Both the position numbers and the translations under genes were made by a program. This document shows positions 14,642-59,336 of a DNA stretch of 64,000 nucleotides, piece by piece (the first letter of the stretch is position 1; every line of letters begins with the position of its first letter). This stretch comes from Meandrina meandrites (taxonomy: Eukaryota; Cnidaria; Anthozoa; Scleractinia; Meandrinidae): positions 36,799,305-36,863,304 of the forward strand of contig OY855908.1 in assembly GCA_963693305.1 (NCBI GenBank), in the 5' to 3' direction. The notes below the pieces were generated by a model, which worked only from the letters and a program-made list of their open reading frames with translations, was not told the DNA's origin and did no database searches.

Positions 14642-17100
14642 TTACAAGGCAGTATCAGTGAAACCTGTGTTCACTAAAACCTTTACTTCTGGGCTTTCGG
14701 AGTCTCCAACAAATGTTTGGTGAGTTATGCCAACTTCTGGTGCTGCTGAGTGTGCTGCTGCTGCTGCCCAGTTGGTGCTGACGCCTCCATCACGCGCTTT
14801 CTCTGGATTTATCCGCATCCGGGAAATAAGGAATAACACTATGACTGATACCAGGGTGACAAAGTATGCAGCCACCAATCCAACTATCTTCAGGTTGGGA
14901 GATGTGGTTTTCTCTAAAGAAAAAAAAGTGTAACTTAGCCAAAATAGGGACGGACCATTAGAAAAGTGATGGGAGGAGGAGGATTTTTGGCTTGCAATAA
15001 TGTTTTTTGGCCCATTGCCTGTGGAAGAACTTTTTTGACTGCATGAATTTTTTTCCGATAAAATCTGCTTTCTGCTATTGATTAGTTAAAAACAGTGCAC
15101 TTTGATTTATTAAATACATAGCTTGTACTTTAAAGTTACTTACCATTTATTTTGTGACATAAAAAGTAAGTAGCAGTTTACACGCGTACAGTGAAAAAAT
15201 TTGTAATTGATATAGTCAGATCTGTCAGACCCGTAGGAATGAATTTTGAGGTGAGAGGGCCCAAAAGTTAGCCCTGATTGTGATGTATTAAAATCGGCAG
15301 GGGTAATTTGCCGAACGCAGAACGCGAAACAAAATCACCGATAAGAGCAAAATCCGTTACCATTATTGAAAGCTAACCGTAAACAGGTTAACCTAGGCAA
15401 TATTTTAGGACAACCTGAGCGATATTCAGGCTAACCGGAGTGCAAGGTACGCTCCGGTTAGCCTAAATAGCACTCCGTTTGGGTTTTGCTTGTTTTGGTG
15501 ATTTTATTTCGCGTTCGGCATTTAGCGTTCGAAATTTTTCGTTCGGCGTTCAGCAAATTACCCTTGCCGTAGGGGGTCCGGGGCATCTTCCCCCGGAAAA
15601 TTTTGAAAATCTTATGTCATTTGGCGCATTTTGGAAAACTTTTTTAGAAGAATTATAATTGGCCATGTTCTAAACGAGCAGGGGACTGGGTACGAAAATA
15701 TTTTTTCTTGGTGCGAGCATTCAATATTGATTGAATTGAAAATGGAGCACGTCATCTGAAAGAGCATCCAAAAATTAGTAAATTCACCAAATTTGATGGT
15801 TATTGGTCTAAATGCAAAGGCATGGTACACTTTTAAAATAAGAGAGCTTAGTATGGATTGGAGGACGCCTGTCCCTCCAATCCATACTAAGTGTACCATG
15901 CCTTTGGGTTTAAACCAATAACCGTCAAATTTGGTGAATTTACTAATTTTTGGATGCTCTTTCAGATGACGTGCCCCATTTTTCAATTCAATCGATATTG
16001 AATGTTTGTACTGAAGAGAAAATATGCTCGTACCCAGTCCCCTGCTCGTTTAGAACATGGCTAATTACGATTTAGTATCAAAATGCGGCCTATCTTGTGC
16101 ATAAATTATTTTATTTGGGTTTTTTCTTGAATGAATTTTTTTTTCGGTCATTTTTCTACGCATGTATTTTTTGTTGTTGTCATTCACTGATAGTCTGGCT
16201 GCATACTCTCGCATATATCTAGACAGCATCCAGACAGTTACTTATTACAATTTCGGGATTACAATGTCCAGATCTAAGTTTCCACTTTATGTTGTCGTCA
16301 ATTTCATCCTAATGTTACTTCAATTAAATGTTACAAGTGGACTTGTAAGCCACACATATTCGCATTGCGGACCTATTTTTTTAATGGGGGCTGTTGCTAA
16401 AGGGTTAACAGGCTAGGTGAGTCAGGAGGTAACCATACAGCAGACAAGTATTTCATGCAGGGAGGAGTAGCAATAATACGAGTCGCTTTTTACTACTCAA
16501 ACCCAAAGCCAAACGCGGTTAATGATGAGCGATGTACAGATTTAGCGATTTTAATCTCAGGGTTTGTTAGGCCTTAAGACACCTCCACGGAAACAGACCC
16601 ACAACCCCCCACCCCCAATTAAAAAACATGGCTAACATGGCTAAAAGAAAGTAGAGAAGTTTCACCTGTCCCTTGGAGTGACGACGTGGGTGAAACAGTT
16701 GTAGAAACAGTTGGCGAAGATGGTGCGCTCGGGTGTTGACTGAGAAAATGTGATGTCCAAGATGATACTACACTACTTGACTGGACTGAAGAAGGAGAAG
16801 TTTGACTACAGCCCACAATGTGCGTTGACGAGGACGTCTTGGATGGTGGGCTGCTGGTCTGAACTAGAGCAGCAGTGAATTGACTACCAGATTCCACAGT
16901 GGGTGTTGACGAGGAGAGAGCATGTGTCGAGGTAGATGGTAGACTGCTTGTCTGAACTGATGAAGGAGCAGATTGACCGGACTCCACAGTGGACTTTGAC
17001 GAGGAGGGAACATGTGTCGACGTAGAAGGATTAAGATTGCTGGCCTGAACAGGAGCAAACGAAACAGTCGCCAGGCTAGTGCGAGGGCTTGTTGTAGCAA
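14642..17100 (-). CDS. gene A: mucin-like single-pass membrane protein (first exon not found)
   Basis: Two minus-strand exons are supported: 17100-16666 (145 codons, Ser/Thr/Pro-rich, acceptor TTTCCAAGCAG, donor GTGAAA) and 14913-14642 (90 codons including stop, acceptor TTTCTTTAG). Both keep phase 1 as in the paralogs. The second exon codes one membrane helix (VGLVAAYFVTLVSVIVLFLI), a basic stop-transfer (SRMR) and a cytoplasmic tail with an Ala run and GITHQTFVGDSESPEV. The ectodomain exon has repeats around STSTH and TVESG and is probably heavily O-glycosylated. A signal-peptide exon should lie above 17100, but none like those of B and C was found before 19440. The donor is weaker than in the paralogs. 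Function unknown; surface location is inferred. Confidence 0.65.
15296..15569. mobile_element. foldback MITE in the intron of gene A
   Basis: Left end GCAGGGGTAATTTGCCGAACG, right end CAGCAAATTACCCTTGC. Inner inverted blocks include AAAATCACC/GGTGATTTT and GGCTAACCGGAG/CTCCGGTTAGCC. Non-coding. Confidence 0.75.
15645..16072. mobile_element. 430-bp palindromic foldback element
   Basis: The left arm (from GGCCATGTTCTAAACGAGC) is repeated inverted on the right (ending GCTCGTTTAGAACATGGCT), with the centre near 15870 at the complementary pair TAGTATGGATTGGAGG/CCTCCAATCCATACTA. Arms are about 200 bp and differ by small changes, so this is not an assembly mirror. The minus-strand open frame over it is a by-product. 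Confidence 0.85.
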
Positions 17101-18728: not shown

Positions 18729-19241
18729 ATATAAGTATACAACGCTTTAAACTGTTCCTTGAAAATCACACGAAAACTCGAATACCATGTTTAATAAATA
18801 AAGCGTTGAAATCTCCCAGCCAAGAGTCTTAGTATAAAAACAATCTTCAAGTGGATTGGGTTCTCAATATACAGCGCAGCGCTCTAAATCTCGGCTGCAA
18901 TCGATAATACATTAAAAGTAATTTTAAAAATTCATTATAAACATGATTTACACTCATCTGTGGATGAATAAGTAATCTCAACAGATACACATAGACAGAA
19001 GAGAATATATCGAAAATTTCGAGACATTTTATATCTTGATAGTGTGATCTGTAGTGCTCGCAGCACCTGGTTGAAATGACGTGTGCACCCGAAAAAAAAT
19101 AAAAGTCATATTTTTATCGCTGTGGCGTCATCAATTTATATCTGTCTTGATTTCCGCCGGATCCGTGCTTGGATGGCCAAGACTGGTTTCCGCTTTTCAT
19201 CACAGGCAGCTGGCCTCAGCTGCTTTGAGGACCCTGATTGT

Positions 19242-20749: not shown

Positions 20750-23700
20750 TTATATCATTCCCGGATTCACTGCATGCTTCCGATGGGGAAAGTAGTATAT
20801 GATAAAGCCTACTATCAAGAAGAAAAAGATGGAAGCAAGAACAATTCCAGCTATCTTCAGTCCTCCGATCGTTTTTTCTGTAGCACCCCCTTCAGATGTA
20901 CTTGCTGTTTCCTTTGTGGGTTGGGTTGTGGTGGACGCTACAAAAAATGATATAATTGTATCGATTTCAAAACACAGTTATTGTTTATCTGCAGTAAACC
21001 ATGTTGCCTAGTTAAATTTTTTTAAACACCCTTCTAACTTTTAAATGCTAACACGTTAAGTTTTTAACTTAAACAATCTCGCCGATTTTTATTTGACATT
21101 GAATTATTGGTGCAAAGAAAAACAACAGTCAAAGAGACAATACGTCAATTTCTCAAGTGAATGTCATCATCACTATGGAATTTAAAATTTATCGGTTAGA
21201 AACTCAAACTGGTCCCGAAAAGCGATGTCCGTTTAGTCAAGGGAAAGGAATGAGAGCTTGTGCGACTTCTGATTGATGACAATGGCAATTCAGGAGATAG
21301 AGCATTGACGGATCTAGATGTGCTTGCTCACTGAAGGGCAGCGGGTGGTGAGGAGAGGGACAAATAAATGACTTTTCGTGCTTAAAGGACCTGCGTTAAA
21401 GACTGTGATTCTTGATTCTTGAAATTTGCCATTTTTAATGTCTTAAAATATCCAGATATGTCCAGAAATGCACGGTAATGAGATTCATGTTCTTCATAAT
21501 GGGCATCACAAAGTGTCCTCATTAATAAAATCCCACCAAAACACACAAAATTATATCAAATATGAAGTATATGAAAATGTCTAAAAGCCCAGTAGGACAT
21601 GAAGTACTCTGTAAACAATACTTGCGTGCATTTCTGGACATAAGTGAAAATATCGTTACATATATCTCCTGAGGAAGCACCCAATTTTGGGCCCTCGCTG
21701 CCTTATAAAAAGGGGAGGATGTCATCTGGGCCCTTCCTCCGCGGTAACCCCGCACCTCGTCCAGACCTCTCTTTTCACTGGTCTCAATAAACTTTAGTTG
21801 CTATTGTTTTTAGAGACAGAGGCATTGTTTGCACCCTTAAGTTTATTGTTTTGTCAGCCAATAACAGATTTCGTTTGGACAGCTCCAGGATGGCTCTACT
21901 CTGGGGATGGGGGTTTCAATATAGGCATGGTATTGCTTGAATGAATTCCACATACACATACCTCTCCGTTGAACAGATGGAGTTGGTGATGCTTTTCCAC
22001 CTGAAGACTGGGAAGAAAGTGAAGGTGAGGAAGACGGAAAAGCAGTACTAGGCAGAATGACAACAGTCGAAATTGACGAGGACGGCGGAAAGGGGAGAGG
22101 TGTTGACGAAGGTGGAGCATTTGCGGATTGAACTGAAGCAACTGACGCACTTGAAGAGCTGGAGGTGGTTATGAGTATCGTCGTTGAAAATGACTGACTG
22201 CTGATCGTAACTGTCGTGCTTGATGACACTGTTTGAAAATGGGGAAATAAGCATGATCAGATATATTGTTGAAGTCTTTCTGACGAGAGACCCTGTTCCA
22301 GACAAACATTTTAAATTTACGCCTGGATGAGACGATTTCTCAAATCCACGAACCAATGTTTTGTTTCCCTAGCAATAAGATTGTACTTCCCTGTAATTTT
22401 ACCCGCGATTTCTCGAACCAATTTTCATTTCCCCTGGAGGTTCGAGAGATCAGGATACTGCTGTAAATGCGGATAACTCGAACGAGCAAGCATGCTGAAG
22501 TTTTGAAATACACGCGCGTCGAGCAAAAAGATGGCGAGATCAACTCTTTCGCGCGTCTTCGCCACTCAGGGTGTATTCCCAAACGCCGGCCTCCTTTGCT
22601 GGCTAAGGGGTTATCGAGGGTAAAATTAGTGAAAAATTGAACAGTAGGAGAATGGAAAAAGGTTCGCTTGTCTGGAGCTAGCGGAACGGTCCGTATTATC
22701 GAGGGTTCGATTTATTGGGATTTAACTAGAAAGTTAGGATTTGTCATAAGAGTCGGCTAATGGGGGTACCCAATTGTCAGTTAACTACTAATTTAAGTTA
22801 GCTATTAATTTTCATTTTCTTACGGCGAAAATTATTACGTCATAACCCGAATTACCTTTACTTCGATAAAGGCAAACTGTGCAAAAGGCAAAACGTGACA
22901 AGAAGTCTCTTTTCTCAAAATATAAAGCGGGAAACGAGTAAGAGCCCATTCGTTTCCCTAATTACCTCGAGACTCTTTTTACATGTGAAAATATGGCTGA
23001 TCACGTTTAATCGGAATATTCCTCGCAGTCTATTCCACTAATACCCGGTTCTTCCATTATAACAGTACGCTATAGTATAGCTAGAAAACTGCGTGAGCTC
23101 ATAACTGATCGTGACACATACAGTTACCCTCGATGTCTTCTCATAAAACCTCCAGGAAGTCTGATTTGCGTGACCTTATGATTGGCGTGAAGTTGCATCA
23201 ACTGATTGCGTGATATAACCCTAAGAATTTTAGAATCTGGCACGAGAGTCGGTTACTATCTGTTAGATCGTGTACACCAAAGTGCATACGAGAATGAAAC
23301 TACCTGCCTGTGGTTTTGAATTTAACCTGAAAAAGTAGGGAAGACTGTCTCGATCAGGTTCTGCTCTTGTGTTTTCGGAAAATCGTTACAAATTTATTTT
23401 AATATCTTCCTCTCCGTGGGCTAGCTCCTTAGTCATAATTTTTGCACCGTTTTTACCACAAAATCAAACGACAAAACGTCCGGAAACAATCGAGGAAACA
23501 TGCGGAAACATCGTTTAGCAAAACTGGTTTTCGCGTTTGAGCGAGAAGCAAAAGCTGTTCCTGATCGTTTTTTAAGCGATGACGTCATTTTATGACGTCA
23601 TCGGTTAATGCTGTAAAGTGGAAAAGCGATGGAATTTATGGAATTTTTGGTGTTACGGTGTTACGATTACTCCCTGAATTGAACCGGAGAGCATTGGGAA

Positions 23701-25836
23701 CTAGGTGCATGGTTCGTGTTCTTGTTGTATTCGTCGTGCGAGTGGACGGGATCTGTTGTCTGCTGCAATCGACCGATCTTTCTAGAACCGAATAGAATTT
23801 GGAACTAACTTCAGGGTTAAACGTCAGAAGAAAAGAATTCAAGTAAAACTCAACAAGAAATCACGGCGTAGAACTCAAAGCAAAATACTCCCGGGCAGTT
23901 AGAAAGGACTGATTCTATGTATAAACGAAAGACACAAATTATATTTGATATGTTTTATTAGATTTAGTAAACAGAAATCTTTACATTTTTTAAAAGAAAA
24001 AGGCTAAACATTTTCAAGACAGCGTTTGACCTTGTATCTTATGTCGTCAGTATCGGATGTCGCGCTACAAGATAACACAGCTTTTGTCAAACAGTCATTC
24101 AACACAGAAGTTGTTCAGGAATAAACGTCAGTAGAAAAGAAATCAAGTTTAACTCAACAAGGAAGCACTGCGTAGAACCTAAAGCAAAATACTCCCGGGC
24201 AGTTAGAAGGGACTAATTCTAAGTATAAGTGAAAGAGAATAATTATATTTGATGTGTTTTATAAGATTTAGTAAACAGAAATCTTTATTCTTTTTTTAAA
24301 AACAAAAGGGCTCAACAATTTCAAGACAGCGTTTGACCTTGTATCATATGTCGTCAGTATCAGATATCTCCCTGCAACATAACGCAACTTTTGTCGAACA
24401 ATCATTCAACACAGAAGTTGTCAGCTATTTTTATTAACTTTCTTGAAATTTTCTGTCAAATTTCCTGAAAATTCTTAAAGACCCCTTGTGAAACGTCATC
24501 GCTTCTGCATGCATTGCGTGCCGTTTATTTTTTGTTGTTGTTGTTTTTTTTTTCAGAAAATTTGCTTCCGCAATCCGCAGCAAATGTTTACCTGTTTGTG
24601 CGCCAAGAAAACAATTGTGGGGAAATAATGCTTTCCGTGACTAACTTCCTCATTTTGTGGGGATTATAAGCTAGAAAGCACTCCTCCCCCGCTGCGGGCA
24701 GCTTTGCTTGTCCTGTCACTCGCTTGTTGTGTACAACAACTGTACATCCAGTAATCATTCACGAAATGTCTTGCTCAAATCCATCCGTACAGAAAAATTT
24801 GGCGGACTGCGAAAACTGAGCGGTATAGCAACTTTCGCCGTCTTCAAGTCCGAGTAATCTGGCTTATTCATTTATTTTCGGGAGAAAATGACACAACCGT
24901 AAATAAACGAGTAAAAAAGGTAACCATGACAATTTGCACGAGAACAGAAGGTAACTGATACCCTCGACACGGAAGAAAACATACTTTGCACGAGAAAAAA
25001 TTAATTCGTGGAAAATTATACATGTCAATACTGCATTTCCTGCAAGAGATTTCGCTTTTACAAGAAATGAAGAAGAAAACGAACTCTTGCGAATCGTGAT
25101 GAATTAATGCATCTGATCTTTAACGGCCGGTTAAAAGTTCCGACTTGGAACACGCAACTTATATCATTGCGCGATTTTAATTTAAGGGCATGTAAACAAA
25201 TTTGTGAACTATGCACGTACAACAGTCCTTAATTTTAATATCGACCACCCTTTATCTCAGGGTTAAAATGAACTGAACTGAAATGGCATCGATGCTTTAC
25301 CTCATGCCAATCAATTGAAATGTCGCACTGCGAAGAAGAGAGAATTAACTAACTTTGATTAAATTCAGTAAAAATAACTATTGTTCCATAAAAGAAGAAT
25401 TACATATGTAAACTTTATATCTACACTTTTTGACAGCGAAACAAACAGGTAGAAGAAAATATAAAATTCTAAATGACCGTTTATCGTCTACGTTTCCGGG
25501 TACCGCACGTACTATATATAGTACACCGCTTTAAAATATACACTGAAAATTCCGCCGAAAAAAAATAAGTTATATGTTTCGTGGATGGGGCCTATCCACG
25601 TACCCAGTTCCTGTTTTTTTGTTCAAGAACGATTTTCAGGCGGCAGCCGGCAGGTATTCTGTAGTTACTACTGCAGTTTACGTAGTGGAAGATTCATGAC
25701 ACCAAGGCAGTTTGCGTAGGCTGATGTATTAATAATATTATTCCATAAAACACGATTCACACTTACCGGTGGTCGAAGAGGAAATCTCCTTTATGAACAA
25801 AAGACACAGGAGAAGATACAGAACACTTTGAGACAT
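20750..25836 (-). CDS. gene B: mucin-like single-pass membrane protein with lost tail
   Basis: Exons on the minus strand: 25836-25767 (signal peptide, MSQSVLYLLLCLLFI), 22228-21962 (89 codons, Ser/Thr-rich, acceptor TTTTCAAACAG, donor GTATGT) and 20937-20750 (membrane exon, acceptor TTTTTTGTAG). All junctions are phase 1, giving about 174 residues. The helix reads IAGIVLASIFFFLIVGFIIYYF. Compared with gene C, a small indel after the helix creates an early TAA at 20750-20752, and the rest of the tail, including the GITHQAFVG motif, is replaced by an AAT microsatellite. B is therefore a truncated allele-like paralog or a young pseudogene; the ectodomain frame is intact. Function unknown. Confidence 0.65.
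22340..22735. repeat. CGAACC-rich repeat in gene B intron 1
   Basis: Carries CCTGGAGGTTCGAGAGATCAGG, GATAACTCGAACGAGC and an ending GATTTATTGGGATTTAACT. It is present at the equivalent place in gene C (29690-30095), so it was there before the duplication. The motifs match the ends of the MITE at 11349-11504. Confidence 0.55.
23571..24540 (-). mobile_element. insertion specific to duplication copy 1 (inverted, partly tandem)
   Basis: The flanks CTGTTCCTGATCGTTT and TTTTTCAGAAAA.TTGCTTCCGC are contiguous in copy 2 near 30915-30965, so about 950 bp was gained in copy 1 or lost from copy 2. The content is the GGCACGCAATGCATGCAG family in minus orientation, with an internal tandem duplication (blocks starting AAAGCAAAATACTCCCGGG at about 23878 and 24181). 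Confidence 0.7.
23580..23600. promoter_or_regulatory. paired perfect TGACGTCA (CRE-like) sites
   Basis: Two palindromic octamers TGACGTCA at 23580-23587 and 23593-23600 are separated by 5 bp at the edge of the copy-1-specific insertion. The octamer is the consensus for CREB/ATF factors (established knowledge). Regulatory activity here is inference only. Confidence 0.35.
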
Positions 25837-26684
25837 CTTGTACAGTTTTATTGTAACCGTGCACTCAACGTCTAACATTAATTCTGGTCTGGCTGAATTT
25901 GCGACTGCACCCGGAAGATGAAATGTGTTATTTTATACTTTGAAGCTCTTGTGATGTCATCATATATCACTACATTGTTCCTTTTGAGAAAATCGAGACG
26001 ATTTATGAAGTATCTCAAGCATTTGAGCATTGTTCTTTTTGAAGAGGAAAACCAGGAAACTAAAACAAAATTAGAAACATTTTGGAAAACTCAAATTATT
26101 CCGCCTTCTCGACTCAGTGAATTCTTGGAAATATTAAAGGTGCTGTTTTAGGTCTAGCGACAGCCGGAAATACGTCTGCGTTCGCAGGCTATTTTAGGTC
26201 TGGGTAAGCGAGATTCGCTTTAAATCGCGAAATAAAAATAGCAAGTTATTTCTTGTGGGCATTGCGCATTTTGATCCGATATTGTCAGTCTGCCTTTAGC
26301 TCTTTGCTCCGCGTCAACCCCAAGAATTTGCTTTTGTGTATAGAAAAATTACTTACGATGATCTTGACTCGTGCAAAAAATGTGACTTTTCCCTTCTCCT
26401 TGACAATTTCTTTATTCTTTCTTGTTATACAGGTAAAACAAATATTGCAAATAGAATATAAAACAGCTGCAACTTAACCAGGTAGAAAATTAGCCTGCTC
26501 CATGAGGCCCTTAAATTGTGGGTAAACGTGGAGGGACCGTAAGGGGAAAACACATCGGATTTGATTGTTTTGTTTGTTTGATTTGATTTGTTGATTGTTC
26601 AGGTCCAATGTACAACATCACAAAATTACTTTAAAAACACGTGCACCGTTGATGGTAAAACTTGAAGGGTACCACTGCAGTTTT

Positions 26685-27837: not shown

Positions 27838-30800
27838 TTAAAGATTATCAGAGTTCCCAACAAATGCCTGGTGGGTTATGCCAGCTTCTGGTCCCGTCGT
27901 TTGTACTCCTTCCGCTTGCCCAGATAGTGCTGTCTCCTCCATAGTTATCTCATTCCCGGTTTTCACATTCATCGCCTGCCTCCAATGGAGAAAGTAGTAT
28001 ATGATAAAGCCTACTATCAAAAGGAAAAAGATGGAAGCAAGAACAATTCCAACTATTTCCAGCCCTCCAATATCTTTAGCACCCCCATCAGATGTACTTG
28101 TTGTTTCCTTTGTGGGTTGGGTTCTGGTAGACGCTAAGAAATATAATATAATTGTATACAGTTATTGTTTATCCACCTGTAAACTATGTTGCCAAGTTAA
28201 ATTTTTCTGGACACACTTTTAAGCCAAAACGTTTAGTTTTTAACTTATACAATCTCCTATTTTTAGTTGACATTGAATTGTTGGTTCAAAGAAAAACAAC
28301 AGTCAAAGAGACAATACGTCAATTTCTCAAGTGAATGTCATCATCACTATGAAATTTAGAATTTATTGGTTAGAAACTCAAACTGGACCCGAAAAGCGAT
28401 GTCCGTTTAGTTAAGGGGAAGGAATGAGAGCTTGTGCAACTTCCGATTGATGACAATAGCAATTCAGGAGATAGAGCATTGACGGGCGGTGGGTGGTGAG
28501 GAGAAGGACAAATGAATGATTTTTCGTGCTTAAAGGACCTGCGTTATACAGACCGTGATTCTTGATTCTTGAAATTGGCCATTTTTTATGTCTTAAAATA
28601 TCGTGACATATCTCCTGAGGAAGCACCCAATTTTGGGCCCTCGCTCCCTTACATTCTTTCAACAAAAAAGGGGAGGATGTCATCTCGGCCCTTCCTCCGC
28701 GGTAACCCCGCACCTCGTCCAGACCTCTTTTTATTGGTCCCAATAAACTGTAGTTGCTATTGTTTTTAGAGATAGAGGCATTGTTTGCACCCTTAAGGTG
28801 GGGGTACACCCGATTTTGAGTGAAATTTTAAGAGATTTAAGGAAGGGATAGAAGAAAGAAAATTATTTTTGAAACACTAACAGACAGTTGACAACCACCC
28901 AAGAGTACCCCAGGTTGCCAGGGGACTGTTTGGGTGTCCATATACTAATTTTTAACTTCAAATTCTAATTTTAAAATCACATTAAATCTTTAATATTTTT
29001 TATTTCTCTAAATTTTACTAATCCTTTGAGATAAACTATCTCTTTCCAAACATCCCCAAAAATCACCAAAAAATTTACAAAACACCGCTAAACAAAGCTT
29101 TGTGAAATGAACATAGAGCTTCTGGATAACTTGAAACGCGGACGAGATATTCGCATTAAACCAAGTTTAGCGGTGGAAAACAGGCTTCAAGTGTACCCCC
29201 GCCTTAAGTTTATTGTTTCGTTAGCCAATAACAGATTTCGTTTGAACAGCTCCAGGACGGCTCTACTCTGGGGGTGGCGGTTTCAATATAGGCATGTTAT
29301 TGTTTGAATGAATTCCACATACACATACCTGTCCGTTGAACAGATTGAGTTGGTGATGCTTTTCCACCTGAAGTCTGGGAGGAAAGTGAAGGTGAAGACG
29401 GGAATGCACTACTGGGCAGAATGACAACAGTGGAAATTGAAGAAGAAGGCGTAACGGGGAGAGGTGTTGACGAAGATGCAGCATTTGCGGGTTGAGCTGA
29501 AGAAGTGGGAGTGGGTATGAGTGTCGTTGAAGATGGTTGACTGCTGATCGTAACTGTTTGAAAATGGGGAAATAAATTCATGATCAGATATATTGTTGAA
29601 GTTTTTCTGACGAGAGACCATGTTCCTCACAAATAGTTTTAATTTACGCCTGGATGAGGCTACAGTTATAGTATAGAATCCTGATTTCTCGAACCCACGG
29701 TTTCTCATTATTATTCTCGAACCAATTTTTTTGTTTCCATAGCAATTAGATTGTGCTCCCCTGTAATTTTACCCGCGATTTCTCGAACCAATTTTCATTT
29801 CCCCTGGAGGTTCGAGAGATCAGGATTCTGCTGTAAATGCCGATAACTCGAACGAGCAAGCATGCTGAAGTTTTGAAATACACGCGCGTTGAGTGAAAAG
29901 ATGGCGAGAACAACTCGTTCGCGCGTGTTCGCCACCCAGGCGTGTATTCCCAAACGAGAGCCTCCTCTGCTGGCTAAGGGGTTATTGAGGGTAACATTAG
30001 TAAAAAATTGAACGGTAGGAAAATCGAAAAAGGTTCGTTTGTCTGGAGCTAGCGGGAGATCCGTATAATCGAGGGTCCGATTTATTGGGATTTAACTGCA
30101 TGGCCACTTATATAATCGAGAAAGTTAGGATTTGTTATAAAGGCGCAAAAGGCAAAACGAAAAAGGCGACAAAAAGTCTCTTTTCTCAAAATATAAAGCG
30201 GGAAAGGAAACGAGTAAGAGCCCATTCTTTTCCCTAATTACCTCGAGATTCGTTTTTCCATGTGAAAATCTGGCTGATCCTGTTTAATCGGAATATTCCT
30301 CGCTGTCTATTCCACTAGTACCCGGCTATTCCATTATAACAGTACGCTATAGTATAGCTAGAAAACTGCATCAACTCATAACTGATCGTGGCACATACAG
30401 TTGCCGTAGATTTCTTCTAACAAAACCTCCAGGAAGTCTGATTTGCGTCTTACTCGTGTATGAACACGAATGGGGACGAGTCAGGATTTGCGTGACCTTA
30501 TGAATGGCGTGACGTTTGCATCAACTCAATTGCGTTATATAACCCCAGGAATTTTCAAATCTGGCACGAGAGTCGGTTATTATCTGTTAGATCGTATACA
30601 CCGCTGTGCATAAGAGAATAAAACTGCCTGAGTTGCCTGTGGTTTTTGAATTTAACCTGAAAACGTAGGGAAGACTGTCTCCATCAAGGTTCTACTCTTG
30701 TGTCTTGGGAAAATCGTTAAAAATTGATTTAGTTCGATAATATCTTCCTCTTGAATTTCTAAACGCTTCTTCGTGGGCGAGGGTCCTTAGTTATAATTTT

Positions 30801-32237: not shown

Positions 32238-32296
32238 CTTGTATTTTAACCGTGCACTCAACGTCTAACAGTAATTCTGGTCTGGCTGAATTTGCG

Positions 32297-50151: not shown

Positions 50152-50215
50152 TTGTGGTCCATGGTGTAATCTCCAAAGAAAATCTGAGGAGGAGATATAG
50201 AAACTTTTGCGACAT
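50152..50215 (-). CDS. orphan signal-peptide exon of the membrane protein family (gene E)
   Basis: Minus strand ATG at 50215, 21 codons and one base, then GTAAGTG. It codes MSQKFLYLLLRFSLEITPWTT, clearly related to MSQSVLYLLLCLLFI of genes B and C, with the same phase-1 donor. No matching Ser/Thr-rich or membrane exon lies below it; the next 11 kb is transposon sequence. It is probably the remains of a fifth gene copy. The hydrophobic core is interrupted by Arg and Glu, so the signal may be inactive. Confidence 0.6.
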
Positions 50216-50674
50216 TTCAGGGGCGTAGCTGGGGAGGTGTGTCCTGGGGTGCCCGTGCCCCACCCCACCCCCGATAGAATAAAAATCTAACGAACGCCTA
50301 TGTAGCAGAGCATGGGCTAGCCTACGAAAAGGGTCATGTTTGGGGCCTCACAAGCGAAAGACCTGCAGCTTCACTCCAAACGTGGGCCTCCTCGCAGGCT
50401 AATAAATGGCATTTTCAACTAGCTTATACACTGGTCATAATTTTTGCATATAAACAAAGGTACCATGCATCTTACATTGGTCCCTTTTCCAAGAATTCAG
50501 TTTTCATTTCCTCTTCGAAACCCTTTCAGGGGAGTCCTACATAAAGTAACATTCTCCTTACTAATCGAAGGCAGTTAAGAGAAATTTTGTGTTGATAACA
50601 TGGCTTATAGGGTCATTAGTCCTGTGTTTACAATGCACTATCTTGTGTTTCTTCGTTTTCCGTGACCTCAGGCT

Positions 50675-53600
50675 TTACTTCCTGTTCAGAATCTTTAACT
50701 TCCGGTTCAGTAACCTTTCCTTCCGGCTCAGGGTTTTTACTTCCGGTTCAGGTGCCTTTACTTCCGGTTCAGGAGCTGCAACGGTTGTTGGACTATCAGC
50801 GTCACCAACAAATGCCTGGTGAGTTATTCCAACTTCCGGCAATGCTATTTTTGCCGCTGTCGCTGGCTCAGATGGCGCAGGCGCTTCCACCAAAGGTTCA
50901 TTCCAATAGTCTGGATACATCTTCTTCCGGAAGGCGAAGAAGTAGACGGCAAAGCCTCCTACCAAGAGGCCAAGGATGGAAACGAGAACGATTCCCACCA
51001 TTTCCAGTGGTCCGATAGTTTTACCAGATGTGCTTGTTGTTTGTTTTGTGGGTTGGATTCCTGCAGAAGCTAAAAAAGCAATGTGATTATTACAAAGGGC
51101 AATATTATTGACAAATATATACCAAAACAGTAAATATTTAAATAGCGTTGTTAGCGCGCGCTGATTGGCTGCTCAAACTCTAGATATCGTTTGCGATTCA
51201 CCTTCGAGCAACTCGCACGCAAAAACTGTAATCGTTGACAGGAATAAATGACTTGGAAAATATCATTTTTGGGTTATATTTTCTCACTGCTTTAAAATAT
51301 ACTAAAAAAACTATTCACCTCAGTGTCGATGGCTAGTAATGGATGTTTTAAATATCCAACAATAGCCACTTCAACTTCGGTGAATAGTTGTCTTGGGGGT
51401 TATCTAAGTTGGTCATCCTTCCGTTGACCTTCTGTTCGATCGACTTTCGCTTAAATTTTTGTTTTTTATTTCTGTATGGCGTAACTGAGACCGACTAGTA
51501 TTTATTTCGTAACGTAATTTGCCTAAAATTTTACATCAACATGTATCTTAGTAGTGGCTACCTCAGCCTGGTTCGTGGTATGCTCAGTCAGAACACTATC
51601 TTGCGCAAAAGTAAGTGTCAGCGCGTCACTTTTTTAAACTCCTAACTTTCAGAAAACAATCTCGTTACAACACTTGAAGGAAAACCGATCTACAGCTACC
51701 AAGAGCTTTTGAACCTTAAAAAGCGTGCTTTTCAGGGTTTTTTTACCTATAGAAATTCAAAAAACCAAATCAATTTCCTCTTTTTAGCGTTTTAATTAAA
51801 ATCCACGATTTTAGAACTTTATATAACTTAAGTTTTTATATAAGCAGAAACTTATAAGCCAATGCATGTAATTTTTTCTTAGTTTTTAAATTCAATTTTT
51901 ACTATTATAACCATATATAAGATAATTTTAATTTTTCGTATTTTCTTAATTAATTTGTTACGCTTTTATTACCAGGGTCCCTCTGCATACCAGCCATTTT
52001 GATGAATGGGCCACCCTGGATAAATAAAGTCTACTTTCTTGCTTACTTTGCTGATTTTTTTTACAATGCAGTTAACTGTGTTGGGGCAAAAAACCACTAG
52101 CTAATCAGAGCCACTAAAAAGTCTAAAAATACTAAAATTGGATTCAGGGATGGACAGCGTTAGGAGGCAGCGTGGCCTTGTGGTTAGGGCGCTGGACTTG
52201 CAATCCGGAGGTCCCGGGTTCAAATCCTCTGTTGTAAATAAGTTAGTTTGACCTGCGAGGACTAAGTCGAGTCATGATTGACACTTGAAACACGTGTAAA
52301 AAAGAATGTTAAAAAAGAGAAGAGAATCGGAAGGAACGGAATAAGGTCTTTCTCCAGTTCTGTGCGGAAAATATCTTTCGGAATTTATTCTCTATATTGT
52401 CACATATCTCGGAATTCAGTCAAGGAAAAATAAAGAGTATGGATCGATACAACATTCTGGTGCCGAGACCTGGGACAGGAAAGGAACTGTGAAAACAAGC
52501 TTCGAACAATGTCGAAATTGAAGAAGAAAGTGAAGGTTCGTGAAAGTCACCGCGTGTTCGTTAGGAAAACCATCCACGAAGCAAATGATCAAATAGACAA
52601 GCCGGAAGAGCCTAACGCTCTGAAGAAGCTCAAATCCTTGCGTTGTACATTACAGGATAAACTGTCGGAGTTAAAGACATTGGATAACGAAATTCTCGAT
52701 TTGGTAGACGAATCGAAGATTGAAGAAAACGTGAGTGAAAGTTGTGATTTCGCCAGTGCAATCCAAGCCTGTATAGTCGACCTAGAATCAACTATTGATG
52801 CGAAAACAAACGAGGGAAAAAGTCAAGAAGGGCAAGGAGCGATTTTGGATTCGCAATCGTCTAAGCTTCAAACGCCAGGGATGAAATCAGGCGGGTCAAC
52901 AAACAACACGACTCATGCAAAGCTACCTAAACTCGAGTTGAAGAAATTTTCCGGCAATCCTATCTATTGGCATCCCTTCTGGGAATCGTTTGAATCGGCC
53001 ATTGACAAAAACACCAGCCTAAATGATGTGGACAAATTTCAGTATCTGAAATCACTCCTGGAAGGTTCTGCAGCTCAAACAATTTCTGGATTAGCGCTGA
53101 CAAGCTCGAATTACAGCCATGCGGTTGAGTTGTTGACCAAGCGCTTTGGAAGCAAACAAGTAATCATTTCGAAGCATATCGAATTATTGATGCAACTTCC
53201 AAAGGTAAACGACGGAAACGATCTGAAGCAATTGCGGCAACTTTTAGACAGAACAGAGGCAGCAGTTAGAAGCCTTCAAGGAATCGGCGTTCCAACCGAA
53301 ACATATGGAACATTCTTGACGCCTGTAATTATGGGAAAGATTCCACAAGAATTGCGTCTTATCCTGAGTCGAGAGGCATCCGATGAATGGGATCTTGACA
53401 CTATCATGAAGTCGTTCACAGAAGAATTGCGAATTCGCGAGAGATGTGCTTTGGGACCGGTAAACGAGCAGGAAAAGTCAAAGGAAAAACATGGGTTTGG
53501 ATTTGGATTTCGTCCTGGTCAAAACAGAAGACCCCCCACATCGTCAACTCTATTTTCAAGCAACGAAGGGCCGCCGCTAAACAAGGATACGTGGTGTTCT

Positions 53601-56600
53601 TTCTGTAATGGACCACATCCTACAATCAGATGTGCTGTCGTAACTGACCCCGAAACAAGAAAGAAAATTCTCCGTCGAAAAGGGAAATGTTTTGGTTGTC
53701 TGAGGAGTGGTCATTTGAGTCGTGATTGTCAGGCTCGTTGTCACCGTTGTGGCGGGAAACATCATTTAGCATTGTGCAACGCCCAAGAATATCCAGGTCA
53801 CCGTTCTCCAGCCGCACTAGCGAGAGGAAACAATCAGGAACAAACTGTGAGTACTAATTTGTATTTCACTCAAGATGTTAAGAACAACTGTGTTTTGTTG
53901 CAAACGGCAAGAGCGATTATCAGAAATCCTAATGGAGAAAGTTCCTGTAATGTGAGAATCATGCTTGATTCTGGTTCTCAGAAGTCTTACATAAACAGGC
54001 GATTAGGGAGCAAATTAGGCCTATCGCCGATTGCAACTGAAACAGTTCTAATTAAAACATTTGGGAACAGTGAAGCATCATTGAAGAAATGTGATGTTGT
54101 TCAGTTCGCACTGGAATGCCAAGACAATTTGACAGTGTTCATTAATGCCTATGAAGTTGATTTGATTTGTGGCCCTATTGCAAACCAAACAATTGAAGTT
54201 GCGCAGCAGTGTTACCCACATCTGCAAGGTTTACCTCTAGCTGATTATTCACAAGGGGATGAGGAGCTAGAAGTGGACATATTGATTGGAGCAGATTATT
54301 ACTGGTCAGTTGTTCAAAACCATGTGGTACGGGGGGAGCTTCATGACCCTGTAGCAATTCGCACAAGATTGGGGTATGTGTTGAGTGGGCCTGCAAATGT
54401 GGCAAATTCAGGTCAAAGTCCATCAAGCGTTAACATGTCGCATGTAATGAAGACGGAGTGTAGGGTGGTCGAAGAAGATTCTGTCTCAAAGAATGATTCT
54501 CTCAAAAATGAACTGGGCAAGTTCTGGGACTATGACACTCTTGGAGTTAAGGAAAGAGAAGATGTATTTCTTGAAGATTATCTGACCAAGGTGAAGTTCA
54601 ATGGTGTCCGTTATGAAGTGTCTCTCCCATTTAAGGAAGAACACCCTGTTATTCCAGATAACTACTTGTTGGCACAAAACCGTCTTGCATCTTCCTTGAA
54701 GAGACTGAAAGCTAAGCCAGATATTTTGCAGCAGTATGACACTGTAATCAAGGAACAATTGAACTCAGGTGTAGTTGAAATGATTGACAAGAGACATGAG
54801 GAACAATGCCTTCCTGGAACTGTTCATTACATTCCTCACAAGGAAGTGGTGAAAGAAGATAGGACCACTACCAAACTACGAGTAGTCTATGATGCTAGTG
54901 CGAAATCTCGAACCGAGCCAAGTTTGAATGACTGTCTCCTGCCAGGCCCTGCCTTAACTCCATTGATTTTTGATATCTTGTTGAGATTCCGTTTTCACAA
55001 AGTAGCTCTGATTGGAGATTTGGAGAAGGCTTTCCTGAACATTGAAATTAATCCTGAGGAGAGAAATTTGTTGAGGTTCCTGTGGATAGATGACATCAAC
55101 TCTTCAAACCCGGAAGTAATCACACTGAGATTTACACGGCTTGTATTTGGCCTTGTATGCTCTCCATTCATTCTGAATGTGACACTAAGGAATCACTTGT
55201 CAAAGTATGAGAACATTGATCCAAGTTTTGTAGACACTGTTGTCAGAGCCTTGTATGTTGATGATTTTGCATCTGGGAAGGATTCGGTAAAGGATGGCCT
55301 TGAACTTTACCGGAAATTGAAGTTGCGCTTCAGAGAAGGAGGTTTTAACATGAGGAAGTGGGCATCAAACAGTCAAGAGTTAACTGAGTTGATCAAGAAA
55401 GAGGAAGCAGCAATATTAGCAACGCCTAAACCATTTCCTGAAGTAACTCTTACATCAAAGTCTAATGTGGTTGAAGATGGCTCTTCAAACAATGCTGTGA
55501 ATGAAGAAACCCTGATCAAGGTGATGGGTATTCCGTGGGATCGGATAGAAGACAGCCTCAAGTTTGATTTAACTACCTTTGCTGGACAAGCCTTGGAAGG
55601 AACTCTAACAAAACGAAAACTGTTGAGCACTACTGCTCAATTCTATGACCCACTAGGCCTGTTGTCACCAGTTATCTTGCCACTGAAGTGCATGTTTCAA
55701 GAGATTTGCCGGTTAAAGATTGATTGGGACGAACCCCTGTCAGAAGATTTCGCATCACGTTGGAAGGAGTTATTTGAAGACATGGAGAGAGTCTCGAGTA
55801 TTGCAGTTCCCCGTTGTATTCTGGATGAGATAGAAGTGGGAGACATTAAATCTATTCAACTCCATGGTTTTGCAGATGCCAGCAAATATGCATTTGGAGC
55901 AAATGTTTACATTAAGGTGACGACCTCTAATGCCTGCTCTTCACATCTGTTAGCCTCAAAGACCCGAGTTGCCCCCTTAAGTGGTGAAACAATTCCTCGA
56001 CTGGAGTTGATGGCTGCCCTAACATTAGCAAATCTGATGACAGTTGTGTATGAGGCACTGGTCCATTGTGTGAAGGTGGATGGGGTGTTTAATTGGACAG
56101 ACTCTCAAATTGTGTGGTGGTGGATCAATGGAGAGTCTAAGCAGTTTAAGCAGTTTGTGCAAAATCGTGTTCAGAAGATCCGAAGTCTTTGGAAGAAGGA
56201 ACATTGGAGATATTGCCCATCTGAGCTTAATCCAGCTGACATAGCTTCACGAGGAGCCAAGAGTTCCATCATCGCATCCAGCGAACTTTGGTGGAAGGGA
56301 GCACCATTTCTAAAGAAGGAAGAATTTGACTGGCCAAGCTTACCCAACTGTCCAGCAAGTGGAACTGCAGTCCCAGAAGAAGCTTTAAAGGAATTAAAGA
56401 AGGAAAGTTCATCTGAAATCTCAAGAGTTATGACAGTATTGGTGCAAAGTTCTCAGAACATCTCAGAAGTCATCCAACCAGAAAGATTTAGCAGTCTCAA
56501 CAAACTTCTCAGAGTGACTGCTCTTGTGCTGAAATTCCTCCGAAGGCTCAGAAAGATGACAGAAACACATGACATCAGCATGGAGGACATGAATGAAGCT

Positions 56601-59336
56601 AAGCAACTCTGGTACAAAGAAGTCCAAACTAAACTTGAAGAAAGGGAGAAGTCTAGTGCTACATGGGAACAATTAGCAGTCTTCAAGGATGAACAAGGAG
56701 TTCTACGGTGCAAGGGAAGGATCCAAAATTCCTCATTATCGTATTCAGCAAAATTCCCTATCCTGTTACCAAGGAAACAGCACTTCACAAAATTGGTGAT
56801 AGTGCAAGCTCATGGAAACGTGAAACACAATGGTGTCAGAGAAACTCTTACTGAAATCCGAGCCAAATTCTGGATTATCAAGGGTCGTCAGGCGGTCAAG
56901 GATGTACTCTCGAAGTGTGTTACATGCAAGAAGATCCTAGGAAGAGCCTACAGTACTCCACCCGCTCCACCTCTACCTTCATTTCGAGTTTCAGATGATC
57001 TAGCATTTTCCAAAGTTGGAGTGGACTTTGCTGGTCCCCTGTATGTGAAGAATATTTACGAGTCCAAAGGAGAGATGTTCAAATGTTACATTGCTCTATT
57101 CACATGTGCCAGCACAAGAGCCATTCACGTTGAACTTGTTCCAGATCTTACCGCATCCTCGTTCATAAGAGTGCTAAAGCGATTTTTCGGCAGAAGAGGA
57201 TTGCCAAACTTGTTCATTTCAGACAATGGGAAAACCTTCAAGGATGGAAAAGTGAAGAAGTTTGTTCTTAATCTGAACATTGACTGGAAATTCAATGTGC
57301 CCACAGCAAGTTGGTGGGGAGGTTTCTTTGAAATCTGCGTCAAACTAGTAAAGCGGTGTCTCAAGAAAGTGCTTGGAAATGCAAAGCTGAGTTATGAAGA
57401 ACTGGAAACAGTCTTGATTGAAACTGAAGGAGTTTTAAATTCCAGGCCCTTGACCTATGTCTACGATGAGTTATCAGAAGGTCCTCTCACTCCTTCTCAT
57501 CTTGTGATTGGTCGTCGACTGTTAGACCAGTCCCCTGTTGTCACTACACCTATGAGCACGCTGGCCAGGCGAGAAAGATATTTGAATAATCTCCTCGCCC
57601 ACTTCAGAAATCGATGGAAGGAAGAATATCTGACTGGGATCCGTGAGTACCAGAAACTTAAGAAAGGAAATCCAAGAAGAGTCATTCAAGAAGGAGACAT
57701 TGTACACATCTACGCAGACAAGAAACCTAGACAGCAGTGGAAATTGGGGAAAGTAGAGAAACTATTGCGGGGACGAGACAACGTCACGCGCGCAGCGGAA
57801 GTGGTGACAGTGGACAAGTCTCTCAACAAAACTCTTCTGAAACGTCCAATTCAGAAGCTCTACCCTCTTGAAATCAATGAACTTGATAAAGTGACAGCTA
57901 ATGCGGAAGCTGTACAGCCGAACAGCGGACTGAACATTCAGATGGTCAGGGATGAAGACGTCCCAACAGTTACTGTTGCATAAACTGTCTGAATCGATTT
58001 GAACACTGAACTGACATTACGAGTTGTAGTTTAAGCTTTGTTTCACCTTATGATTGACTCAGTCAATCAGGGGGGAGTGTGTTGTAAATAAGTTAGTTTG
58101 ACCTGCGAGGACTAAGTCGAGTCATGATTGACACTTGAAACACGTGTAAAAAAGAATGTTAAAAAAGAGAAGAGAATCGGAAGGAACGGAATAAGGTCTT
58201 TCTCCAGTTCTGTGCGGAAAATATCTTTCGGAATTTATTCTCTATATTGTCACATATCTCGGAATTCAGTCAAGGAAAAATAAAGAGTATGGATCGATAC
58301 AACATCCTCCTCCCTGCCGCTAGATCGATTTGTCTTCGGTGGTCCCGAATTCAACTCCTCCACGGTTTGTAAATAACCAGCTGGTCAGCATCCTACCAGT
58401 TGGGGTTTTAACAAATTTCTGTGTTATTTGTAATATTTGTTTGCTTATTTACAGTGTCCACAATTAGTACAACAGTACTAAATACTCTGACACTTAAATA
58501 AAGTGATTTATTTTTTTATCAGAAGGTAAAATTTGTGCTTGACACTAACTCGTGTTAACGTTAGAAACAATGTTAATAAAACTTCAAAGACTTCGGCCTT
58601 CATCGGTTTTTAAAAAGTCAACTGAGTGACGGCTTTCTAGAGATTCACAATTCTGCGCGTGCCACGCCAGCAAAAACATAACGAACGACTGCTGCGCGAG
58701 ATTACGCGAGGGATTTGTAAACATCCGGGATGTCAATATGTTCGTTTCCCGCGTTGCTGACCCTCTGCGAATACCAGGCACACAATGCGTGAGGACTGGG
58801 CCCGAGTTCTGAGTTGAAGGTGGTAGCAAAGATATGACTTCGTGTTTAAAAGGTGGCGCAAATTTTTTCGGCCCCCTATGTCTTACATTCAATTAAAGGA
58901 GAAACAGGAGGTGCCTACCCGGGACCCCTTAGTGACTGAAGAGTGCTACCCCTGGGTTTGAATTCAGTGAATACGTTAATTTTAAAGGAAATCTACATGC
59001 ACATACCTATCCCTTGGACAGATGGTGTGGGTGAAACTGTTCCACCTGGAGGCAGGGAAGCGAGCAAAGGTGAAGAAGACGGAGATGCACTACTGGCCAC
59101 AACAATGGCATTTGACGTAAATGGCGTTACGGGGAGAGGTGTTGCCAGAGATGTAGCATTTGCGCGGTGGGATGCAACTGAAGAAGCTGATTCACTGGAT
59201 TTGACGGATGACGTTGACGATGGTTGACTGCTGGTCTGATCAGCCGTAGATTTACTGGAATCCACTGAGGAAATTGAGGGAGAGGGAGCGAGTTTCGATG
59301 ATTGATCGCTGATCGTAACTGCCGTGTTTGATGACA
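50675..59336 (-). CDS. gene D: mucin-like single-pass membrane protein, intron holds a BEL element
   Basis: Exons on the minus strand: 59336-59007 (110 codons, Ser-rich, acceptor TTTTCAAACAG, donor GTATGT) and 51069-50675 (131 codons including stop, acceptor TTTTTTAG). The second has IQPTKQTTSTSG as in gene C, a helix (VGIVLVSILGLLVGGFAVYF), a basic FRKK stop-transfer and a tail with GITHQAFVGDADSP followed by APEPEVK repeats. After the second repeat the frame turns basic and ends at 50675. In the next frame the PEPE-type acidic repeats continue to a stop near 50636, so a one-base loss in an A run at about 50739 probably changed the C-terminus (or it is a sequencing error). The 7.9-kb intron contains the BEL retrotransposon. 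The first exon was not found below 64000. Confidence 0.65.
51070..52161. other. gene D intron, with 3' tail of a LINE at about 51840-52035
   Basis: The stretch TTTTATTACCAGGGTCCCTC to CACCCTGGATAAATAAAG looks like the 3' untranslated end of a CR1-type LINE in plus orientation, with no coding part left. The rest has no recognised feature. Confidence 0.45.
52225..52229. other. 5-bp target duplication of the BEL element (left)
   Basis: TCCTC at 52225-52229 is repeated at 58305-58309 directly outside the two LTRs. Five bases is normal for BEL/Pao integration. Confidence 0.93.
52230..52454 (+). repeat. 5' LTR of the BEL element
   Basis: 225 bp, TG...CA ends extended to TGTTG...CAACA inverted termini. 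It contains AATAAA at 52429-52434 as a likely poly(A) signal and no clear TATA box. Identical to the 3' LTR. Confidence 0.95.
52458..52475 (+). promoter_or_regulatory. primer-binding site of the BEL element
   Basis: TGGTGCCGAGACC begins three bases after the 5' LTR. TGG is the complement of a tRNA CCA end. The tRNA identity was not determined. Confidence 0.7.
52509..57983 (+). CDS. BEL/Pao gag-pol polyprotein
   Basis: One uninterrupted frame of 1824 codons. Order by residue: Lys-rich N-terminus with coiled-coil-like segment (1-110); gag-like DUF1759 region (about 138-300); zinc knuckles near 362, 394 (CFGCLRSGHLSRDC) and 411; aspartic protease-like DUF1758 with DSGS near 487; reverse transcriptase with YVDD at 916-919; Pao-type A17 region with FYDPLGLLSP near 1045; RNase H with ADAS near 1121 and DSQ near 1198; integrase HH-CC zinc site (about 1435-1473); integrase core with Asp1506, Asp1572 and Glu1608, the last two separated by exactly 35 residues; DUF5641 from about 1728. 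All catalytic residues expected for RT and integrase are present and there is no stop, so it may be active. Gag and pol are fused, so relative dosage must come from processing. Confidence 0.96.
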   Translation: MSKLKKKVKVRESHRVFVRKTIHEANDQIDKPEEPNALKKLKSLRCTLQDKLSELKTLDNEILDLVDESKIEENVSESCDFASAIQACIVDLESTIDAKTNEGKSQEGQGAILDSQSSKLQTPGMKSGGSTNNTTHAKLPKLELKKFSGNPIYWHPFWESFESAIDKNTSLNDVDKFQYLKSLLEGSAAQTISGLALTSSNYSHAVELLTKRFGSKQVIISKHIELLMQLPKVNDGNDLKQLRQLLDRTEAAVRSLQGIGVPTETYGTFLTPVIMGKIPQELRLILSREASDEWDLDTIMKSFTEELRIRERCALGPVNEQEKSKEKHGFGFGFRPGQNRRPPTSSTLFSSNEGPPLNKDTWCSFCNGPHPTIRCAVVTDPETRKKILRRKGKCFGCLRSGHLSRDCQARCHRCGGKHHLALCNAQEYPGHRSPAALARGNNQEQTVSTNLYFTQDVKNNCVLLQTARAIIRNPNGESSCNVRIMLDSGSQKSYINRRLGSKLGLSPIATETVLIKTFGNSEASLKKCDVVQFALECQDNLTVFINAYEVDLICGPIANQTIEVAQQCYPHLQGLPLADYSQGDEELEVDILIGADYYWSVVQNHVVRGELHDPVAIRTRLGYVLSGPANVANSGQSPSSVNMSHVMKTECRVVEEDSVSKNDSLKNELGKFWDYDTLGVKEREDVFLEDYLTKVKFNGVRYEVSLPFKEEHPVIPDNYLLAQNRLASSLKRLKAKPDILQQYDTVIKEQLNSGVVEMIDKRHEEQCLPGTVHYIPHKEVVKEDRTTTKLRVVYDASAKSRTEPSLNDCLLPGPALTPLIFDILLRFRFHKVALIGDLEKAFLNIEINPEERNLLRFLWIDDINSSNPEVITLRFTRLVFGLVCSPFILNVTLRNHLSKYENIDPSFVDTVVRALYVDDFASGKDSVKDGLELYRKLKLRFREGGFNMRKWASNSQELTELIKKEEAAILATPKPFPEVTLTSKSNVVEDGSSNNAVNEETLIKVMGIPWDRIEDSLKFDLTTFAGQALEGTLTKRKLLSTTAQFYDPLGLLSPVILPLKCMFQEICRLKIDWDEPLSEDFASRWKELFEDMERVSSIAVPRCILDEIEVGDIKSIQLHGFADASKYAFGANVYIKVTTSNACSSHLLASKTRVAPLSGETIPRLELMAALTLANLMTVVYEALVHCVKVDGVFNWTDSQIVWWWINGESKQFKQFVQNRVQKIRSLWKKEHWRYCPSELNPADIASRGAKSSIIASSELWWKGAPFLKKEEFDWPSLPNCPASGTAVPEEALKELKKESSSEISRVMTVLVQSSQNISEVIQPERFSSLNKLLRVTALVLKFLRRLRKMTETHDISMEDMNEAKQLWYKEVQTKLEEREKSSATWEQLAVFKDEQGVLRCKGRIQNSSLSYSAKFPILLPRKQHFTKLVIVQAHGNVKHNGVRETLTEIRAKFWIIKGRQAVKDVLSKCVTCKKILGRAYSTPPAPPLPSFRVSDDLAFSKVGVDFAGPLYVKNIYESKGEMFKCYIALFTCASTRAIHVELVPDLTASSFIRVLKRFFGRRGLPNLFISDNGKTFKDGKVKKFVLNLNIDWKFNVPTASWWGGFFEICVKLVKRCLKKVLGNAKLSYEELETVLIETEGVLNSRPLTYVYDELSEGPLTPSHLVIGRRLLDQSPVVTTPMSTLARRERYLNNLLAHFRNRWKEEYLTGIREYQKLKKGNPRRVIQEGDIVHIYADKKPRQQWKLGKVEKLLRGRDNVTRAAEVVTVDKSLNKTLLKRPIQKLYPLEINELDKVTANAEAVQPNSGLNIQMVRDEDVPTVTVA
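58069..58079 (+). promoter_or_regulatory. polypurine tract of the BEL element
   Basis: AGGGGGGAGTG directly precedes the 3' LTR, the expected plus-strand priming site. Confidence 0.85.
58080..58304 (+). repeat. 3' LTR of the BEL element
   Basis: Identical to 52230-52454 over 225 bp. AATAAA at 58279-58284. Followed by the TCCTC target duplication. Confidence 0.95.
58541..59006. other. gene D intron, nothing recognised
   Basis: Sequence between the SINE tail and the Ser-rich exon of gene D. A minus-strand chance frame of 102 codons lacks family or splice support. Confidence 0.45.

Follow-up and report, generated by a model that had tools for sequence, protein, structure and literature searches.

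The stretch analysed here is a window of 64,000 nucleotides (nt) from the 551 Mb assembly of the stony coral Meandrina meandrites; coordinates beyond 64,000 lie outside the window. It carries four minus-strand loci, A to D, which share one plan: a predicted signal-peptide exon, an exon rich in serine and threonine (Ser/Thr), and an exon for a membrane helix and a tail. A shared three-exon architecture of at least four minus-strand loci joined in phase 1 had been proposed in the original prediction, and it is borne out in A to D: both joints of the joined exon models are in phase 1 in all four loci, and all eight modelled introns begin with GT and end with AG. The joints that had been proposed for locus C (32167/29553 and 29328/28133) were reproduced exactly as GT-AG phase-1 joints in the DNA. 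Read to their first stops, the joined frames are 260 (A), 174 (B), 196 (C) and 264 (D) residues long. The exons are as follows.

18952..19027, minus strand: locus A exon 1, predicted signal peptide (MSRNFRYILFCLCVSVEITYSSTDE), aligning with exon 1 of B, C, D and the relic E described below
16666..17100, minus strand: locus A exon 2, Ser/Thr-rich stalk, 144 residues, 48.6% Ser+Thr
14642..14913, minus strand: locus A exon 3, membrane helix, GITHQTFVGD core, C-terminus FTDTAL
25767..25836, minus strand: locus B exon 1, predicted signal peptide, differing from that of C at 2 of 70 bases
21962..22228, minus strand: locus B exon 2, Ser/Thr-rich stalk, 88 residues, 48.9% Ser+Thr
20750..20937, minus strand: locus B exon 3, membrane helix; a 7-nt gap and an ATT microsatellite have removed the tail
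32168..32237, minus strand: locus C exon 1, predicted signal peptide (MSQSVLYLLLCLLFIKEISSSTT)
29329..29553, minus strand: locus C exon 2, Ser/Thr-rich stalk, 74 residues, 45.9% Ser+Thr
27838..28133, minus strand: locus C exon 3, membrane helix, GITHQAFVGN core, early stop relative to D (end GNSDNL)
75580-75511 in window coordinates, outside the window, minus strand: locus D exon 1, signal exon (MSLKFLYLFFAVCFALKIVSGTT), donor GTAAGT, phase 1
59007..59336, minus strand: locus D exon 2, Ser/Thr-rich stalk, 109 residues, 42.2% Ser+Thr
50675..51069, minus strand: locus D exon 3, membrane helix, GITHQAFVGD core and PEPEVK repeats, in which the frame is lost

The three-exon model proved predictive. 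The signal exon of D is absent from the window, and the sole candidate in the adjoining 30 kb lies where the model predicted it, so that the first intron of D would span 16.2 kb. The short-blastn matches to this position are weak (expectation value, E, 0.021 over 14 of 14 bases for the signal exon of A; E 0.089 over 29 bases at 86% for that of C), and in an alignment of all first exons the start context TATAAAATGTCT is common to A and D. A profile built from the four signal exons also found a further exon, relic E (E 7e-5). No stalk or membrane exon was found to go with it, and by its likeness to the other first exons it appears to be the remnant of a fifth copy. The second intron of D measures 7,937 nt, most of which is made up by a Pao-type element flanked by long terminal repeats (LTRs).

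50152..50215, minus strand: relic E, orphan putative signal-peptide exon (MSQKFLYLLLRFSLEITPWTT), 64 nt, phase 1, donor AA/GTAAGT
52230..58308, plus strand: Pao-type LTR retroelement inside D intron 2, LTRs at 52230-52458 and 58080-58308, 99.6% identical

The Pao-type element, with its 229-nt LTRs and one open frame of 1849 residues, looks recent. Its Pfam matches above cut-off are Peptidase_A17, DUF1759, DUF5641, DUF1758 and an integrase zinc-binding domain, with reverse transcriptase and the integrase core falling just below. About 20 nt of intron past the first donor (GTAAGTGTRAATC-TGTTT; for example 50151-50130) are conserved across the copies and relic E, which exceeds what a donor needs. 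At exon 2, B (22228-22211) and D (59336-59319) each hold two in-phase AG acceptors 18 nt apart, of which C retains one; use of the downstream acceptor in B would likewise preserve phase 1.

Stalk, membrane helix and cytoplasmic tail

The stalks stand out by composition. A Ser+Thr content of 40% over 70 residues is attained by just four of the window's 178 stop-free stretches (70 residues or longer), namely the stalks; in the surrounding 314 kb, window included, one further stretch attains it, without matching the stalk profile at E <= 5. Their lengths run from 74 to 144 residues and their Ser+Thr content from 42 to 49%; cysteine occurs once in A and not in B, C or D, and the N-glycosylation motif NxS/T once in D and not in A, B or C. 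The stalks had been described as variable in length and hard to align. The variation in length stands, whereas those of B, C and D can be aligned with one another and only that of A is hard to align. The helix-proximal TQPTKxTxSTS, also said to be kept, is present in B and C; D has one change (IQPTK...) and A just EKTTSPN.

Apart from a hydrophobic N-terminus, a single strongly hydrophobic segment of about 31-33 residues occurs in each protein. An AlphaFold2 model of C exon 3, made with four sequences, consists of one helix at residues 23-59 (block means of pLDDT 76, 92 and 88) followed by a tail of low confidence (41-58), which suggests that the tail is most likely a linear-motif region. The original prediction of small mucin-like membrane proteins thus has a real gene family behind it, whose products are predicted to be mucin-like and to cross the membrane once. 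A Ser/Thr-rich stalk without a folded domain, carried on a single helix, is the form of an O-glycosylated spacer.

Of the four loci, for which the tail motif GITHQ(A/T)FVG had been described as shared, A, C and D have it unbroken and B has lost it. The conserved part of the tail is a core of about ten residues only, in which we recognise no standard motif. The tail had been called fixed, and in that it was wrong. In B a 7-nt gap shifts the frame directly behind the helix, and an ATT microsatellite stands in place of the remainder. C stops early, since beyond its stop codon the DNA can still be recognised as the counterpart of that in D (observed local score 16; the highest in 2000 first-order random resamplings was 13.5). 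D goes out of frame past the motif, within its PEPEVK repeats and next to a stretch of five A and three C; an assembly error could explain this frameshift. The other frame of D remains open as far as ETQDSAL, and its stop codon (50628-50630) is the homologue of the stop that follows TDTAL in A; the local score is 19, whereas none of 2000 first-order random resamplings exceeded 17. Only in A does the tail frame run uninterrupted to this shared stop. The homologous DTAL and DSAL ends are most simply read as those of an ancestral tail that ended in D-[ST]-A-L, which three copies lack. A C-terminal D-T-x-L fits the class I PDZ ligand consensus.

Genome distribution and relation to known systems

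Searched as degenerate DNA, the exact motif GITHQ(A/T)FVG has three sites in the 551 Mb assembly, all of them in the window, with none for the reversed control. A genome search with the membrane exon of D scored six candidates at E <= 10 and gave four matches, namely D itself, C (E 8.6e-19), B (4.3e-5) and A (9.1e-5), all in the cluster; a copy much nearer to A than to D could have escaped this query. Within the window, a profile of the four membrane exons found no fifth (next best E 0.12, low complexity), and a candidate at 36787-36659 was rejected as low complexity. The profiles were built from the copies themselves and therefore match those copies by construction, so that what is informative is the absence of others and the finding of relic E. 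Four exon matches and three motif sites, all in the window, argue for one small local family and not for a repeat. A repeat origin of the tail motif was accordingly rejected.

Searches for relatives elsewhere came back empty. Pfam gave no family above cut-off for A and C (whole) or for D (without exon 1), B being outside the scan. The matches below cut-off were Orf78 (E 0.0012, 19.6 bits against a cut-off of 29.4), Uroplakin_II (0.017) and Insulin_TMD (0.13) in the membrane region of C, Med13_C (4.3) and MGC-24 (4.8) also in C, and DUF5654 (0.038) in A, with none in D; all were rejected as relationships. A protein search with the membrane exon of C gave three candidates, none at E <= 1, which is a weak negative because the animal share of the collection is not known. 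No relative was confirmed among 19 pattern stretches in viral contigs or 17 in prokaryote contigs, and these collections, which by design are without animal genomes, say little. The best match among solved structures had E 0.76. The word GITHQ is absent from the 5.39 million openly licensed papers searched. Among the matches listed for literature on coral or cnidarian relatives and on cnidarian NHERF or ezrin, by their titles and the starts of their abstracts, nothing matched the A-D family, and the text of PMC9012326 contains no ezrin, NHERF, microvilli or EBP50. The family is apparently small, local and new to the searches made.

In overall plan the proteins resemble CD34, podocalyxin and endoglycan, with a stalk that is mucin-like in composition, one predicted helix and a short tail. 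According to passages of PMC10220851, the CD34 family has a cysteine-containing globular domain and numerous N-glycosylation sites extracellularly, and tails that bear DTEL or DTHL binding motifs. Similarly to these motifs, D-[ST]-x-L ends A and the other frame of D, and it is absent in B and C. In contrast to the CD34 family, A to D have no cysteine-bonded globular domain (with 0-1 cysteines per stalk) and at most one N-glycosylation motif in each stalk, and A alone has D-T-x-L as its in-frame end. Without the cysteine domain or a set of N-glycosylation sites, membership of the CD34/podocalyxin family was rejected. The GITHQ core of A, C and D is an extra feature that is not known from the CD34 family.

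Transmembrane mucins of a sea anemone are described in PMC9080433 as MUC1-like, with SEA, or MUC4-like, with NIDO, AMOP and VWD. A to D share with the sea-anemone proteins a predicted signal peptide, a low-complexity region rich in Pro, Thr and Ser, and one helix. They are, however, far shorter than MUC1-like and MUC4-like mucins, and the defining domains were not found: SEA, NIDO, AMOP and VWD, as reported for mucins of a sea anemone and corals in PMC9080433 and PMC4890752, had no Pfam match in A, C or D (D without exon 1). Membership of the MUC1-like and MUC4-like groups was rejected for lack of these domains in the three copies. In size and general plan A to D also resemble short sialomucins of the CD164/endolyn (MGC-24) and the PSGL-1/CD43 type. 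The one Pfam match, the weak MGC-24 match of C noted above, is below cut-off, and there is no significant sequence relation.

Divergence between copies and surroundings of the cluster

The ratio of nonsynonymous to synonymous divergence (dN/dS) was estimated from protein-guided and from nucleotide-guided alignments. In the nucleotide-guided alignments, dN and dS of the stalk were 0.105/0.178 for B-C, 0.285/0.333 for C-D, 0.282/0.308 for B-D, 0.516/0.712 for A-D and 0.729/1.241 for A-B, and those of the membrane exon 0.105/0.17 for B-C, 0.359/0.621 for C-D, 0.302/0.473 for B-D, 0.582/0.977 for A-D and 0.5/0.818 for A-C. A fast-changing ectodomain over a fixed tail, as first proposed, finds no echo in these values: among B, C and D, dN/dS is similar in stalk (0.59-0.92) and membrane exon (0.58-0.64). 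The protein-guided estimates for the same copies are 0.37-1.03 and 0.51-0.64, and for the wider set 0.34-1.03 for the stalk (five pairs, A-B being not computable) and 0.39-0.64 for the membrane exon (six pairs). The protein-guided alignment misplaced the gaps of the B-C stalk, giving a synonymous divergence (Ks) of 0.37 as compared to 0.18 in the nucleotide-guided one. The lowest point estimates within exon 3, 0.17-0.33 (protein-guided), belong to a 16-codon core, for which the upper bounds of the intervals are 0.73-2.41. Positive selection on the stalk was rejected as a demonstrated property, there being no excess of amino-acid change (pairwise dN/dS <= 1.03), and as the intervals are wide (upper end 1.71 for the B-D stalk) it is neither shown nor excluded.

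The Ser/Thr content of the stalk, in contrast, is kept above neutral expectation. In neutral simulations started from C, 42% Ser/Thr was kept in 11 of 2000 runs at a distance of 0.37 and in 1 of 2000 at 0.60; when started from D, in 0 of 2000 at both 1.0 and 2.0. The likeness between C and D takes in the exons together with some 20 nt of flank at the splice sites and does not extend into the introns tested, the other shared stretch being a dispersed repeat; in forced alignments identity is 75% in exon 2, 68% in exon 3, 44-51% in the introns and 56% in the 3' flank. Together, the exon-bounded likeness and the simulated loss of Ser/Thr suggest that stalk composition is loosely constrained and the core sequence more tightly. 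The dispersed repeat, of about 300-420 nt and 75-93% identical, lies near the stalk exons of C and D (28793-29207 and 59408-59735) and at the left end of the window (705-1084 and 2162-2577).

B and C are the youngest pair. Their 5' parts (24522-25903 and 30924-32296, about 1.4 kb) are 96% identical, or about 3% different, while the other aligned pieces are 81-92% identical and the other intron and flank pieces 5-9% different. The excess of similarity at the 5' end fits gene conversion or a second duplication.

Several features were noted around the cluster. A near-perfect palindrome of 1.4 kb (42780-44167, 97%) lies between relic E and locus C within nested inverted repeats (38.8-48.3 kb). Adjoining the cluster on the plus strand are two cysteine-rich open stretches (10622-10951 and 11147-11344) that by eye are von Willebrand type C-like. 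An open frame on the minus strand (60920-61414) resembles by eye the end of a reverse transcriptase of the long interspersed nuclear element (LINE) type, with no Pfam match at E <= 0.001. Outside the window, a long open frame on the minus strand just upstream of D exon 1 (window coordinates 76911-78092) is cytochrome P450-like by eye, and long open frames on both strands at about 143000-158000 resemble, also by eye, a large DNA mobile element.

Interpretation of the cluster

The reading that we favour, tentatively, is that of a birth-and-death family of likely anti-adhesive, O-glycosylated surface mucins with an ancestrally PDZ-anchored tail. The four tandem loci and the relic fifth would encode small type I membrane proteins with a signal peptide, a stalk, one helix and a short tail. 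The stalks, if O-glycosylated, would likely coat the cell surface as an anti-adhesive spacer layer; the ancestral D-[ST]-A-L end may have bound a PDZ scaffold, and the GITHQ(A/T)FVG core may bind a second partner. By analogy with podocalyxin, A would serve as a coat protein anchored in this way; the products of B, C and D, if these are expressed, would be unanchored forms of the same coat protein, or else the three would be copies heading to pseudogenes. The cluster is likely to behave as a birth-and-death array. In podocalyxin, as excerpts of PMC1796660 describe it, the C-terminal DTHL recruits NHERF-1, the protein is called an anti-adhesin, and the ectodomain with the helix and four tail residues suffices to induce microvilli.

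A number of observations weigh against this reading. According to the same excerpts of PMC1796660, podocalyxin continued to induce microvilli when it lacked DTHL or the tail, so that coat-like effects need not depend on the PDZ ligand. DTAL can be read in frame in a single copy, and in the other three (B, C and D) the tail is truncated by three different lesions. As no relatives from other species were found, the conservation of the tail is that among paralogues. Every copy deviates somewhere, A doing so at its first donor, where the GTAAGT of the family has become ATGAGT so that GT reads AT. The usable donor of A would be the next in-phase site 6 nt downstream (T/GTAAAT, joint 18951/17101), a weak one that scores -0.22, at about the 90th percentile of all GT on the strand, as compared to 3.48-6.48 for six other donors; the weight table was not a fitted one, and the first donor of D was outside the scored set. 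The two alignments of B with C that cover exons 2 and 3 show differences at 46 of 424 exon positions and at 86 of 1091 intron positions (p 0.07), slightly more in the exons, and this speaks against constraint on the pair. A stop-free stalk persisted in 20% of the neutral simulations at 0.37 and in 12% at 0.60, so that openness is weak evidence for the closer pairs. The cluster may, then, be largely dead.

A decaying cluster, in which a formerly functional gene has left mostly pseudogenes that are open by chance, with A as the sole possible survivor, is the strongest alternative, though we consider it rather unlikely. It would account for a lesion or departure in each copy, the relic signal exon without partner exons, the Pao-type element in the second intron of D, and B-C exons that are no slower than introns. 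It accounts poorly for signal, stalk and membrane parts that are stop-free in every copy (the joined frames by definition end at the first stop), for a Ser/Thr content that exceeds the neutral simulations and for a C-D likeness that is bounded by exons, and the frameshift of D, if an assembly error, would not count toward decay. Improbable in our judgement is a version of the mucin reading in which these are lineage-restricted surface mucins that have kept GITHQ(A/T)FVG as a new docking motif while the PDZ ligand was lost independently in three of four paralogues, leaving anchored and unanchored forms.

The original prediction leads to another rival, that of surface receptors for recognition or adhesion whose ectodomain diversifies and whose tail signals. 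The allorecognition receptors of Hydractinia, the Alr proteins, are encoded by tandem paralogues, have Ig-like ectodomains and show extreme within-species polymorphism. A to D are likewise tandem paralogues coding for predicted membrane proteins, their stalks vary in length, and within exon 3 the lowest dN/dS points, with the wide intervals given above, fall on the cytoplasmic core of ten residues that A, C and D retain. However, no folded ectodomain was recognised by Pfam in A, C or D (D without exon 1), an Ig-like domain included, stalk dN/dS points stay at or below 1.03 in pairs with usable Ks (intervals up to 1.71), and three of four copies have a truncated tail. A receptor or recognition role is therefore unsupported, and we regard it as more doubtful still. 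Least probable of all are shed Ser/Thr-rich proteins of the skeletal or mucus matrix with the helix as a transient anchor. In favour of them, PMC4890752 reports mucin-like proteins classed as transmembrane in a coral skeleton proteome, but the domains of the reported mucins were not found in the Pfam scan of A, C and D, and no shedding site was identified, none having been sought.

These loci are a small family of membrane mucins undergoing turnover or else a cluster far advanced in decay. The cluster displays copies, truncations and a relic of one family together. If decaying, it would represent ordinary gene-family turnover. If expressed, it would represent a new class of membrane mucin, compact and duplicated in tandem, whose intracellular motif can be tested, and it would make it possible to examine whether cell coats of a sialomucin-like, PDZ-anchored kind had more than one origin among animals.
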